Below, piece after piece: positions 45,334 through 64,000 of a stretch of DNA of 64,000 bases. The stretch lies in contig NZ_FXUA01000001.1 of the NCBI RefSeq assembly GCF_900182815.1, forward strand, positions 62,001-126,000, in the 5' to 3' direction. Both the position numbers and the translations under genes were made by a program. Source of the stretch: Algoriphagus winogradskyi (lineage in GTDB: Bacteria; Bacteroidota; Bacteroidia; Cytophagales; Cyclobacteriaceae). Under the pieces are notes generated by a model, which saw nothing but the letters and a program-made list of their open reading frames with translations, searched no databases and was not told the DNA's origin. Position 1 is the first letter of the stretch, and every line of letters begins with the position of its first letter.

Positions 45334-45435
45334 AATTTTCAATGGTCAAATTCAACGTTCTAGTCCATTTATAAAGAATAAAAGTTTAAAATAGAATTGC
45401 GATCTCCGCGTAACCCTCAGTGACCTCGGAGCTTA
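45334..45435. repeat. Word-like repeats between the CHY and TonB-receptor genes
   Basis: The gap holds TCAATTTTCAATGGTCAAATT-type words and a GC-richer segment (CTCCGCGTAACCCTCAG... CTCGGAG) resembling the CGCAGAG-type intergenic words near 62.0 and 63.7 kb. No gene is seen. Confidence 0.4.
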
Positions 45436-60778: not shown

Positions 60779-61927
60779 CTATAATTTAATTTCTTTAAGT
60801 TTATCCAAAGCCACATAAAGCTCTGAATCCTTCTTTGCGAAGCAAAATCTAAGAATTTTGTGATCTTTCTTATTAGAGAAAAACACGGAGATAGGGATGC
60901 TCGCCACTCCTATTTCCTTGGTAAGGCGAACAGACAAATCATAATCTGATTCTTTGGAAAGATGTGCATAGGACACCATTTGGAAGAAGCTTCCTTGGGC
61001 TGGGGTAAACTTAAAAGGGCTTTCCTTAAGTCCTTCACAGAACAAATCCCGTTTCTGCTGGTAATAATCAGGAAGAGTCAAATAACGAGATGGCTCAGCC
61101 AAGTAATCTGCCAAAGCATATTGTAATGGAGTAGCAGTGCTGAAAGTCAAAAACTGATGAACCTTTCGGAATTCTGCGGTGAGTTGCGGTGGGGCCAAAC
61201 AATAACCAATCTTCCAGCCCGTCACATGAAAAGTCTTCCCGAAAGAGCCACATACGAAAGTTCGGTCTCTCAAAGTAGGATGGGTTACTAGTGACAAATG
61301 CTTTCTTCCATCAAAGGTGATATGCTCATACACTTCATCACTAACAACTAAAATATCTGTGTCCTGAATCAAATCTGCAAGGGTATCCAAATCCTCTTGT
61401 GTCCAAACGTAGCCACTTGGATTGTGCGGGGTATTCACCATGATCAGGCGTGTTGTATCTGAGATTGCTGATTTCACCTTTTCCCAATCCACAGAAAAAT
61501 CAGGCATTTCAAGCGGGACATATACAGGAATTCCTCCGTTCAATGCTATAGCTGGAGCATAAGAATCATAGGCTGGATCAAATAAAATAACTTCATCTCC
61601 CCGCCTCACAACAGCCGTCACCGCCGCATAAAGTGCTTCAGTAGCTCCAGAAACAACGGTTACTTCATTTTCTGAATTTAAGTCAACGTCATAGACCAGC
61701 TTAGTTTTATCAGCAATCCGCTCACGCAAAACAGGTATCCCACTCATCGGCGCATACTGGTTAAAACCCGCCTTCATGTATTTATTTACCAAGTCGAGTA
61801 ATTCAGGATCACATTCAAAACCAGGGAAACCCTGCGAAAGATTAATAGCTCCACAATCACTTGCAAGCTTGGACATTACTGTAAAAATTGTGGTCCCTAC
61901 GTTGGGAAGTTTAGATAAAATAGGCAT
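60779..61927 (-). CDS. Class I/II aminotransferase (methionine aminotransferase-like)
   Basis: A 382-residue PLP enzyme. The Schiff-base lysine lies in SFGKTFHVTGWKIGY, the PLP phosphate contacts in SGATEALYAAV, the ring contacts in NTPHNPSGYVW and VVSDEVYEH, and the carboxylate-binding Arg near KILRFCFAKKD. The pattern fits the kynurenine/methionine aminotransferase group (YbdL). A -7 box ends 4 bases before the ATG, as for speA. It is separated from the arginase gene by a 326-base repeat-containing gap. Confidence 0.92.
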   Translation of the reverse strand: MPILSKLPNVGTTIFTVMSKLASDCGAINLSQGFPGFECDPELLDLVNKYMKAGFNQYAPMSGIPVLRERIADKTKLVYDVDLNSENEVTVVSGATEALYAAVTAVVRRGDEVILFDPAYDSYAPAIALNGGIPVYVPLEMPDFSVDWEKVKSAISDTTRLIMVNTPHNPSGYVWTQEDLDTLADLIQDTDILVVSDEVYEHITFDGRKHLSLVTHPTLRDRTFVCGSFGKTFHVTGWKIGYCLAPPQLTAEFRKVHQFLTFSTATPLQYALADYLAEPSRYLTLPDYYQQKRDLFCEGLKESPFKFTPAQGSFFQMVSYAHLSKESDYDLSVRLTKEIGVASIPISVFFSNKKDHKILRFCFAKKDSELYVALDKLKEIKL

Positions 61928-61931
61928 AGTT

Positions 61932-61939
61932 CAAAACTA
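61932..61939 (-). promoter_or_regulatory. -7 promoter element abutting the aminotransferase start codon
   Basis: Minus strand reads TAGTTTTG, then AACT and ATG, leaving almost no leader. Confidence 0.45.
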
Positions 61940-62202
61940 TTGATTTTGAAGTAAAATCTTATAATTCGTCTTGATTTCCCGCCGATGTGCGCAACTAAAT
62001 ACCGCAGATTTACGCCGATTTAACTAATGGAAAATTCAGACTTACTAGATTATCAGATCTGCAGAAATCTTCTACCCTTCTCCGCGGGAATCTGCGGGAA
62101 AAACCAGAATCTAACAAATTGGCATTTCTATAATTTTAAAATTTGAACTTTGTCCATTGTCAATTGAACTTTGATTATTGATCATTTAAAGGCATTTTTA
62201 AC

Positions 62203-62210
62203 TACTTTTG
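62203..62210 (+). promoter_or_regulatory. -7 promoter element for the arginase-family gene
   Basis: TACTTTTG fits TAnnTTTG, 43 bases before the ATG at 62254. ATTG at 62177-62180 is a possible -33 box. Confidence 0.45.
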
Positions 62211-62253
62211 CCTTCCATTACCCAACCCACTATAACTTTAAATTCCTCTTAGA

Positions 62254-63204
62254 ATGCGTGATATTAAATTAGTAGAAGTACGGTCAGAGATTGCCGCCGG
62301 AACCCGTGGAGCAAGCATGGGTATAGATGCTTTGAAAATTGCCAGCTTAGATAAGAAGTCTGACTTCTTCACACAGTTTGACCCTATCAACGTTCCTGAC
62401 GCGAATAACTACCTATGGAAAGGCAACAATTTCCCACATGCTAAATACATCGATGGCGTTTATCAGGTTTTGAAAAATGTCTATTCCACGATCGAATCTT
62501 TACGTATGGAGAAAAAATTTCCTATCGTTTTGGCGGGAGACCACAGCACTGCGGCAGGCACTATCATGGGCATCAAAGCTGCCGATCCTGATAAGCGTTT
62601 AGGAGTGATTTGGATTGATGCACATGCTGATTTACACACACCATTCACCACTCCTTCCGGAAATATGCATGGAATGCCCTTGGCGATGGTTTCTCAATTG
62701 GATAATTTGGATTGTCAGGTGAATGAACCCTCAGAAGAGACTTTGGCTCTATGGAAACGAATCAAGGCTATCGGCGGTGAATCTCCAAAAATTGATCCCA
62801 AGGATATCGTATTCATCACGGTACGAGATACCGAAGCACCAGAAGATCATCTGATCAAAAATTACGGAATCAAAAATTTCAGTACTCAGGAAGTCCGTTC
62901 AAAGGGGATTGATCAAATCTCTGCTGAAGCGTTGGAAACGCTGAAAGATTGCGATCAAATCTATATTTCCTTTGATGTGGATAGTTTGGATAGCTCCATC
63001 TCTGTGGGTACTGGTACTCCGGTGCCAGATGGCTTGACTGTACAGGAAGCGATAGAACTTAATGTCAAACTGATTCAGGATAAGCGAGTATGCTGCTGGG
63101 AAATCGTAGAAGTGAATCCTACCCTTGACTCGGAGAATCTAATGGCCGAAAACGCATTCGAAGTTCTAGAAGCAACAGTAAAGTCTTTGGTAGATAATTT
63201 CTAG
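62254..63204 (+). CDS. Arginase-family ureohydrolase
   Basis: A 316-residue binuclear-manganese enzyme. The metal ligands sit in GDHST, WIDAHADLHTP and SFDVDSLDSS, and SGNMHGMPLA is the family motif. Arginase, agmatinase and formimidoylglutamase share these; the N-terminal region (EIAAGTRGASMG) and overall length favour arginase. Paired with an arginine decarboxylase and argS nearby, it would direct arginine to ornithine and urea. A GxxExxY gene begins 58 bases later inside repeats. Confidence 0.9.
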   Translation: MRDIKLVEVRSEIAAGTRGASMGIDALKIASLDKKSDFFTQFDPINVPDANNYLWKGNNFPHAKYIDGVYQVLKNVYSTIESLRMEKKFPIVLAGDHSTAAGTIMGIKAADPDKRLGVIWIDAHADLHTPFTTPSGNMHGMPLAMVSQLDNLDCQVNEPSEETLALWKRIKAIGGESPKIDPKDIVFITVRDTEAPEDHLIKNYGIKNFSTQEVRSKGIDQISAEALETLKDCDQIYISFDVDSLDSSISVGTGTPVPDGLTVQEAIELNVKLIQDKRVCCWEIVEVNPTLDSENLMAENAFEVLEATVKSLVDNF

Positions 63205-63209
63205 GTTTA

Positions 63210-63728
63210 TTAACCGCAAAGTGCACGGAGTTTTGCGCAGAGTACACTGAGTAAAAACACTTATGATTGACGAAGATCTCATACTTGAAAATGAAATTGC
63301 CACACGGGTTATTGGCATAGCAATAGATGTCCATCGTCAATTAGGGCCTGGACTTTTAGAGAATGCATATAAGCAAGTTTTAGCCTTTAAACTCCAGAAA
63401 GCTGGTATTTTTGTAGAAGTAGAGAAAAAAATGCCATTAGAAATTGATGAAATTAACTTAGACGTTGGCTACATAATTGATATTTTGGTGGAAAGGAAAT
63501 TAGTTTTGGAATTGAAATCAGTTGATATACTCAACGACGTTCATTTTGCCCAAACGCTTAACTACGTAAAAATCGGAAAATACAAATTGGGTCTGCTTAT
63601 TAACTTTAATGTTTCCCAACTAAAATATGGAATTCAAAGAGTTGCTAATACGAAACCCAGAATATAAATAAAAACATAAAATGAATCAATTGCGCCCTCT
63701 GCGAAATCTTTGCGTGCTCTGCGGTTAA
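63210..63728. repeat. Inverted repeats bracketing the GxxExxY gene
   Basis: TTAACCGCA at 63210-63218 is mirrored by TGCGGTTAA at 63720-63728, and CGCAGAG (63236-63242) by CTCTGCG (63697-63703). The ~40-base arms align imperfectly with one gap and enclose exactly one gene, 63263-63667. Confidence 0.65.
63263..63667 (+). CDS. GxxExxY protein (PD-(D/E)XK-like)
   Basis: A 134-residue protein named for its motif, here GLLENAY (residues 30-36 region, GPGLLENAYKQVL). A PD-(D/E)XK-like nuclease core follows: DVGYIIDILVERKLVLELKSV carries the Asp, Glu and Lys of the fold. The family is widespread and its role unknown. Inverted repeats of the TTAACCGCA type bracket the gene, so it looks like a small passenger inserted between arginase and argS genes. 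No SD-like site or clear promoter is present. Confidence 0.88.
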   Translation: MIDEDLILENEIATRVIGIAIDVHRQLGPGLLENAYKQVLAFKLQKAGIFVEVEKKMPLEIDEINLDVGYIIDILVERKLVLELKSVDILNDVHFAQTLNYVKIGKYKLGLLINFNVSQLKYGIQRVANTKPRI

Positions 63729-63734
63729 AAAAAT

Positions 63735-64000
63735 ATGAACATACAAGAATCAATACATAACGGCATACAGCTTGCCTTTCAGAATATCTTCAATCACGAT
63801 CTGCCTTTGGAGCAGATCAGCCTCGCTCCTACGCGGAAGGAATTTGAAGGAACTTACACCTTCGTGGTTTTTCCCTACCTGAAAGTGTCCAAAGCAACTC
63901 CTGAGGTCACAGCAAATCTAATCGGTGAATACTTGAAAGAAAACGTAGCTGAAGTTGCTGGTTTCAATGTAGTAAAAGGCTTCCTGAATCTAGAACTGAA
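63735..64000 (+). CDS. argS: Arginyl-tRNA synthetase, N-terminal part (partial)
   Basis: The plus strand is open from ATG 63735 to the right edge (88 codons). The sequence (MNIQESIHNGIQLAFQNIF, RKEFEGTYTFVVFPYLKVSK, TANLIGEYLKENV, VKGFLNLEL) is the N-terminal additional domain (Add-1) of ArgRS, which recognises the tRNA-Arg D-loop. The HIGH and KMSK regions lie beyond the window. Its start follows directly on the right inverted repeat of the GxxExxY unit, which may have separated argS from an older promoter. Confidence 0.9.
   Translation, partial: MNIQESIHNGIQLAFQNIFNHDLPLEQISLAPTRKEFEGTYTFVVFPYLKVSKATPEVTANLIGEYLKENVAEVAGFNVVKGFLNLEL

Follow-up and report, generated by a model that had tools for sequence, protein, structure and literature searches.

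Free-standing homing endonucleases include enzymes of the PD-(D/E)XK type, for example I-Ssp6803I, and both MITEs and short insertion sequences carry terminal inverted repeats. In REP/REPIN systems with their RAYT (TnpA-REP) genes, inverted, hairpin-forming extragenic doublets fall into repeat groups matched to neighbouring genes, and non-autonomous copies occur (PMC3116915). The rRNA intervening sequences that encode an S23/four-helix protein are described as small single-gene selfish units inside 23S rRNA genes (PMC4990558). Here we describe a cassette in the gap between the arginase gene and argS of Algoriphagus winogradskyi, where two arrays of short inverted units, the arms, bound a single GxxExxY gene. 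The cassette lies near the end of the window, the whole stretch of 64,000 nucleotides that was analysed, and the features at this end are as follows.

61976..62107, no strand assigned: second element, gene-less, of the CRCAGAT kind, upstream of arginase; likely decayed
62254-63204: arginase gene
63206..63251, + strand: left arm, with inward units CGCAAAG, CACGGAG, CGCAGAG and CACTGAG at spacings 9-12-9; outer end TTTATTAACC
63263..63667, + strand: GxxExxY gene, a single ORF of 134 aa, PD-(D/E)XK type by motif
63690..63732, - strand: right arm, with inward-read units CGCAGAG, CGCAAAG and CGCAGAG; outer end TTTTTTAACC
63735: start of argS

An earlier note on this DNA had pointed to inverted repeats around the gene, and the repeats are present in the sequence: TTAACCGCA at 63210-63218 is exactly inverted at 63720-63728, and CGCAGAG at 63236-63242 recurs inverted as CTCTGCG at 63697-63703. 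The right repeat ends close to argS, with six bases (63729-63734) before the ATG. The note's description of imperfect inverted arms of about 40 bases agrees with a gapped alignment of the flanks (locus L015), which scored 35 over about 37 bases, and an ungapped repeat search placed the arms at 63206-63234 and 63704-63732 (29 nt, 72% complementary). The score of 35 is higher than that of all 354 shuffled flank pairs (largest 33) and exceeds the 99th percentile (31) of 466 shifted control frames, four of which reach at least 34. When the 64 kb window was scanned for tandem units, five of the seven matches lay inside the two cassette arms; the same scan of 20 Markov-1 sequences gave a mean of 0.85 matches and at most three. 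No Rfam family matched window positions 61900-64000 at E up to 1.

The genome that holds the window (4.97 Mb) has four GxxExxY loci above the family cut-off and one below it. The window gene is the only uninterrupted one among these four, and inverted arrays of differing flavours, judged by eye, are found at all of them. The closest named loci belong to A. chordae and A. antarcticus.

The cassette resembles REP/REPIN-RAYT systems (PMC3116915) in its inverted doublets, its intergenic gene-less copies and its repeats matched to a gene, although only 13 of 53 tested pattern matches here have a partner. It differs from them in its gene, which belongs to a PD-(D/E)XK family and is not a Y1/HUH transposase, and in its arms, which are arrays of 8-13 base units; the gene also lies between the arms and has several copies per genome. 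With homing endonucleases the cassette shares a nuclease-type gene in an intergenic slot, greater likeness between cassettes than between their flanks, and many losses and broken copies. In contrast to homing endonuclease genes, it is bounded by inverted arrays of its own that have gene-less copies elsewhere, and the evidence for homing is comparative. Inverted ends and short gene-less copies recall MITEs and short insertion sequences, but no transposase and no target-site duplication were seen here, and the arms are periodic arrays that diverge together. Finally, the rRNA intervening sequence is likewise described as a single-gene selfish unit (PMC4990558), and its protein family, PF05635, lies between similar arrays in our data; GxxExxY, however, is another protein family, and intervening sequences sit in 23S rRNA genes.

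We give an even chance to the reading that the cassette is a minimal mobile unit, comprising a predicted nuclease gene with its own recognition ends, and a PD-(D/E)XK counterpart of REPIN/RAYT. The two inward arrays of short units would serve as the nuclease's own recognition ends, and the nuclease would bind, cut or nick its own kind of arm, or the folded hairpin. Homing could follow if a chromosome with an empty or diverged site were repaired from incoming cassette-carrying DNA, and short arm-to-arm hairpins might be copied in trans, as is thought for REPINs by RAYTs. If this is true, repeats are maintained by a nuclease that is unrelated to transposases, in much the way that RAYTs maintain theirs. 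The tie between GxxExxY and the arrays makes testable both the role of the protein and the origin of the CRCAGAG, CRCAGAT and CACATAG intergenic repeats, and suggests a simple mobile unit that has so far been little noticed.

The gene product is a GxxExxY protein, as had been read from the sequence, by its matches to PF13366 (E 2.1e-35, 122 bits, cut-off 22) and TIGR04256 (E 1.5e-36, 125.3 bits, cut-off 35). The PD-(D/E)XK pattern was also recovered, with residues E33, D73, E83, K85 and Q97 invariant in 23 of 23 aligned relatives; from the general features of that fold family we take these to be the catalytic residues. An AlphaFold2 model built from 8 sequences (mean pLDDT 50.8) was too poor to use for the fold, a fold search gave no significant match, and sequence searches for relatives of solved structure returned none below E 0.66. 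Of 120 pairs, five could be measured for dN/dS, and these show purifying selection (0.03-0.12); arginase dS was left out since it was saturated in those pairs. The window protein matched none of the anti-phage families of PADLOC or the phage families of PHROGs, and the first of four scans of viral contigs gave one relative and the other three none. Of 198 Bacteroidota genomes 101 have a GxxExxY match, as do 48 of 59 Algoriphagus genomes. No paper on the role of GxxExxY genes was found in the literature searched. Where papers name GxxExxY or PF13366, the parts of them that were found do not treat repeats, and the available parts of the literature on related repeats and mobile elements do not report a GxxExxY–array tie.

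The proposal that arms and gene form a unit is supported beyond the window, since they are generally paired both within Algoriphagus and across the phylum sample. Arm units are CRCRRAK-like and point inward on both sides (653 inward versus 177 outward units at 150 loci), and neighbouring units are mostly spaced 8 (53 cases), 9 (114) or 10 (81) bases apart, spacings of 11-13 being less common. Over Bacteroidota as a whole, paired arms score at least 34 at 92 of 150 GxxExxY loci and at least 28 at 120 of 150, and therefore part of the loci are without clear arms; in the combined controls, 34 is reached by 6 of 646 shifted frames and by 111 of 1460 mismatched partners. The 118 Algoriphagus loci were taken from 126 gene clusters, from which three duplicates, four loci shorter than 300 bases and L066 (near a contig end) were dropped. 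Among them 64 true pairs reach 34, compared with 50 of 590 mismatched pairs, 4 of 466 shifted frames and 0 of 354 shuffles. For 30 phylum genomes, each represented by its best-scoring locus, the corresponding values are 22 of 30 true pairs, 61 of 870 mismatched pairs and 2 of 180 shifted frames. Eight plasmid loci and one viral contig were also scored; three of the nine reach at least 40 (Bernardetia, Bacteroides and the viral contig) and the other six score 17-27. One locus of genome G058 (L128) holds a tandem pair of GxxExxY genes with CRCAGAT-type arms on each. On a Sphingomonas plasmid (L319), GxxExxY is flanked by fabD and fabG as part of a fatty-acid gene cluster, and an array is visible on the left only.

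The 150 loci fall at 60 positions, as defined by shared neighbours, and one position has 27 members. Arm similarity is 29.6 among protein pairs of at least 60% identity that lie at different positions (27 genus pairs) and 16.4 among all others, a difference equalled in 0 of 5000 permutations. Over all identities, Mantel tests of arm against protein similarity gave rho values of 0.13 and 0.11, with 108 and 273 of 2000 permutations as high. The overall arm–protein correlation is weak, and the signal sits in close pairs. In the protein tree, clades tend toward their own arm kind, e.g. CACATAG, CRCAGAT, CCCGCAAAGGCGC or CCACGAAGGCACTAAG. At the arginase-argS site, the left-right arm match is 40.4 within species versus 31.6 between species (0 of 5000 permutations), and left flanks match other left flanks at 90.4, far above the left-right match; both results are expected of one old site with arms that change in concert. 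We chose the three arm patterns and the JUN9 group only after inspecting the arms.

Multiple copies of the arms without the gene, which the earlier note had named as support for a mobile unit, were found: a search with the window arms gave nine other places in the same genome, and the seven of these that were fetched have no GxxExxY within about 3 kb. Among pattern-match loci fetched from the genus, 7 of 54 contain GxxExxY. Among the 13 of 53 that have an inward partner at a score of at least 30, four are GxxExxY cassettes and another four are hairpins of 80-154 bases; the matches without such a partner look like single arms by this test. The AG-type pattern has 271 matches in 59 genomes versus few AG-type genes, and the reversed arm patterns have 4, 4 and 0 matches in the 59 genomes. 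Some gene-less copies stand in tandem arrays together with flanking DNA. At L282 (G058) and L284 (G044), hairpins and flanking DNA have been tandemly amplified in units of about 190-200 bases.

We compared copies outside GxxExxY loci with the clades present in 41 genomes that were at least 90% complete, using rules for intact copies and for all copies. With the reservation that the genomes are not independent, CACATAG copies have a median of 11 where an intact CACATAG clade is present versus 0 where it is not (17 and 24 genomes, P 1.4e-5), CRCAGAT copies 10.5 with their own clade versus 3 without (P 3.7e-3), and AG-type copies 19 versus 2 for the 9-12-9 junction type (5 vs 36 genomes, P 1.3e-3). 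CRCAGAT copies are tied as strongly to the unrelated AGG8 clade (P 3.1e-3) as to their own, there are weaker cross-ties of CACATAG copies with the CRCAGAT clade (P 0.028) and of AG-type copies with the CACATAG clade (P 0.019), and the other cross-ties between copies and clades in this test were not significant. By these counts CACATAG copies appear to track the matching clade, and the tie appears less exclusive for CRCAGAT copies. Genome G041, with nothing but a fragment as its GxxExxY match, carries one copy of the first (AG-type) pattern, two of the second and none of the third, and nine of its relatives have 12-25 AG-type copies. In a small-genome group that was picked by hand on genome size and arginase identity, and in which clade labels were set by hand and some broken copies unevenly omitted, CACATAG copies number 3-14 with GxxExxY versus 0-2 without it (7 and 8 genomes, P 6e-4); G003, counted as without, has a weak match below the cut-off. 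The GxxExxY of the seven small genomes with CACATAG copies comes from another clade and has no visible paired arms. This mismatch of copies and clade counts against the model. The gene-less copies, being statistically tied to GxxExxY clades, lead us to infer that the arms may spread with help in trans.

A tie between the arms and GxxExxY, without which the earlier note would have given up the mobile unit, was thus found, but it is not exclusive, since arrays of the same design also bound PF05635 genes. The Algoriphagus locus L201, which was found as an arm match, holds a frameshifted PF05635 gene (about 1500-2150; E 3e-20) between GTAAAT-like arrays that score 45. On cyanobacterial plasmids, all eight PF05635 loci examined (L324-L331) have inward arrays on both sides of the gene; they represent 8 of 18 cyanobacterial plasmid records found. 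The units there are mostly AGCAGGGG-like, and the arrays score 34-65 versus at most 24 in shifted frames. Because PF05635, an unrelated non-nuclease, occurs in similar arrays, the array platform is not confined to a single protein family, and the GxxExxY nuclease may be a passenger. PF05635 is a possible second cargo or parallel system, and this four-helix parallel hints at a more general platform. We tentatively extend the model to an undescribed bacterial mobile platform in which inward arrays (8-13 base spacing) bound one small orphan gene, either a GxxExxY nuclease or a PF05635 four-helix protein. Such a platform would co-evolve with its gene, spread gene-less hairpins in trans and home at fixed sites, and GxxExxY would be the nuclease of a transposase-free REPIN-like system.

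The chief rival, which we think somewhat unlikely, is that the arrays are a mobile platform spread by other means, such as replication slippage, recombination or another enzyme, and that GxxExxY, like the PF05635 protein, is a passenger or array stabiliser. Such a platform would accommodate both the Algoriphagus locus and the eight plasmid loci with PF05635 between inward arrays, and the tandem amplification of hairpins with flanking DNA needs no nuclease. It accounts less well for arms that are specific to close protein relatives, for CACATAG copies that track the matching clade, and for arms at one site that change together with the gene.

The mobile-unit reading also bears on the history of the arginase-argS site. 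The earlier note had held that gene and arms fixed here in all relatives would speak against mobility; among 50 Algoriphagus junctions, 29 are without the gene (one of these, the L174 stretch, has no argS) and 21 hold GxxExxY sequence, which in three cases is broken into fragments (L021, L028 and L038). These counts cover the junctions of 50 of 59 genomes and exclude from the 21 of 50 eight extra loci found through GxxExxY itself. In six of the 29 gene-free junctions the gap is only 31-36 bases, and at least six of the 29 keep an apparent right-arm remnant, as judged by eye. A single clade (support 99) holds the 27 junction proteins that were long enough for the tree, with one from Cognataquiflexum; the 27 include stop-containing rows and two identical pairs (L026/L049 and L048/L182). 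The site was therefore occupied at an early stage, and loss has been frequent since. The same clade rules out a recent insertion at this site, and also independent insertions, which the differing arm types had suggested. Thus the mobile unit of the earlier note does not hold for the window copy as a recent insertion, since the junction clade shows old occupancy. We read the window copy as a long-established resident of the arginase-argS gap that is still intact.

In two pairs of junction loci the gene is more alike than its neighbours. The GxxExxY gene is 93.8% identical between L015 and L045 and 93.7% identical between L049 and L050, versus 82.8% and 78.9% for the flanking genes, and this is opposite to the general trend, as gene-minus-flank identity has a median of -5.9 points over 351 junction pairs. 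The excess over the neighbours on both sides is 11-15 points in two independent cases, a count that allows for the relatedness of L049, L050 and L051. With L046 as a third species, arginase identities are alike (81.3, 81.3 and 82.3%), and the gene is near-identical only between L015 and L045 (93.8% vs 82.8 and 82.8% for the L046 pairs). In both L015/L045 and L049/L050 the left break most probably falls between the gene and the outer left arm. For the right break, the most probable place in L015/L045 is the outer right arm or further out, and in L049/L050 it is the end of the gene, inside the right arm. The left break of L050/L051 falls within arginase, and the predicted break points do not always coincide with the arms. 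At other positions, 9 of 134 syntenic pairs, from five positions, have the same pattern at P <1e-4, with flanks that are not all coding. Taken together, these comparisons indicate that, at a fixed site, species have exchanged the gene but not its neighbours, which is what homing-like exchange would produce.

Such cassette-limited exchange is not expected of an ordinary gene, and it weakens the explanation that the arms are cis parts (terminators, attenuators or autoregulatory sites) of an ordinary, mostly vertical gene, with the gene-less copies as remnants of lost genes. That the gene is old and syntenic at many of the 60 positions agrees with this explanation, as do the single-arm remnants visible by eye at the gene-free junctions of at least six genomes. 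Gene-less copies outnumber genes, however, as the 271 AG-type matches in 59 genomes illustrate, and some of these copies are 80-154-base hairpins (four) or tandem arrays; we consider this explanation quite unlikely.

For the mobile unit, empty sites in relatives had been proposed as a check, and one was found: the L063 cassette of G053 is absent from G050 (L307), and the flanks are 94-95% identical. No target-site duplication and no clean ends are visible between L063 and L307, where neighbouring arrays overlap. G050 holds a 79.6% identical relative of L063 elsewhere (L056), and in four other genomes the gap at the L056 site measures only about 110-200 bases. Differential loss is possible at L063/L056 because the two cassettes differ more than the flanks. 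A comparison of L086 with five relatives gave no clean filled/empty pair. G046 was rejected as an empty site for L071, a locus of G047 with GxxExxY and CACATAG arrays, because in G046, a close relative, a Y1 transposase (PF01797, E 1e-26; L287) fills this gap. L071 seems to keep a remnant of the end of that transposase. It is highly improbable that the arms represent ordinary REPs belonging to a RAYT (Y1) transposase with GxxExxY as an incidental neighbour, since, for all that the two genes occupy the same gap, the palindromes beside the G046 transposase are of the GTCCC..GGGAC type, unlike the CACATAG arrays, and tblastn with this transposase against 323 fetched loci found no relative beyond two overlapping fetches of its own place.

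Two further repeats in the window are of the arm type. The CRCAGAT-kind element upstream of arginase contains an inverted repeat (62002-62018 / 62081-62097), and the element (61976-62107), folded alone as DNA, was no better than shuffles (z -1.15). Among 17 regions compared by eye upstream of arginase, those of several relatives have related copies and others have other repeats or none. A solitary arm-type tandem-unit match, CACTGAGGGTTACGCGGAG, lies in intergenic DNA at 45404-45433 on the minus strand and is perhaps a single-arm remnant.
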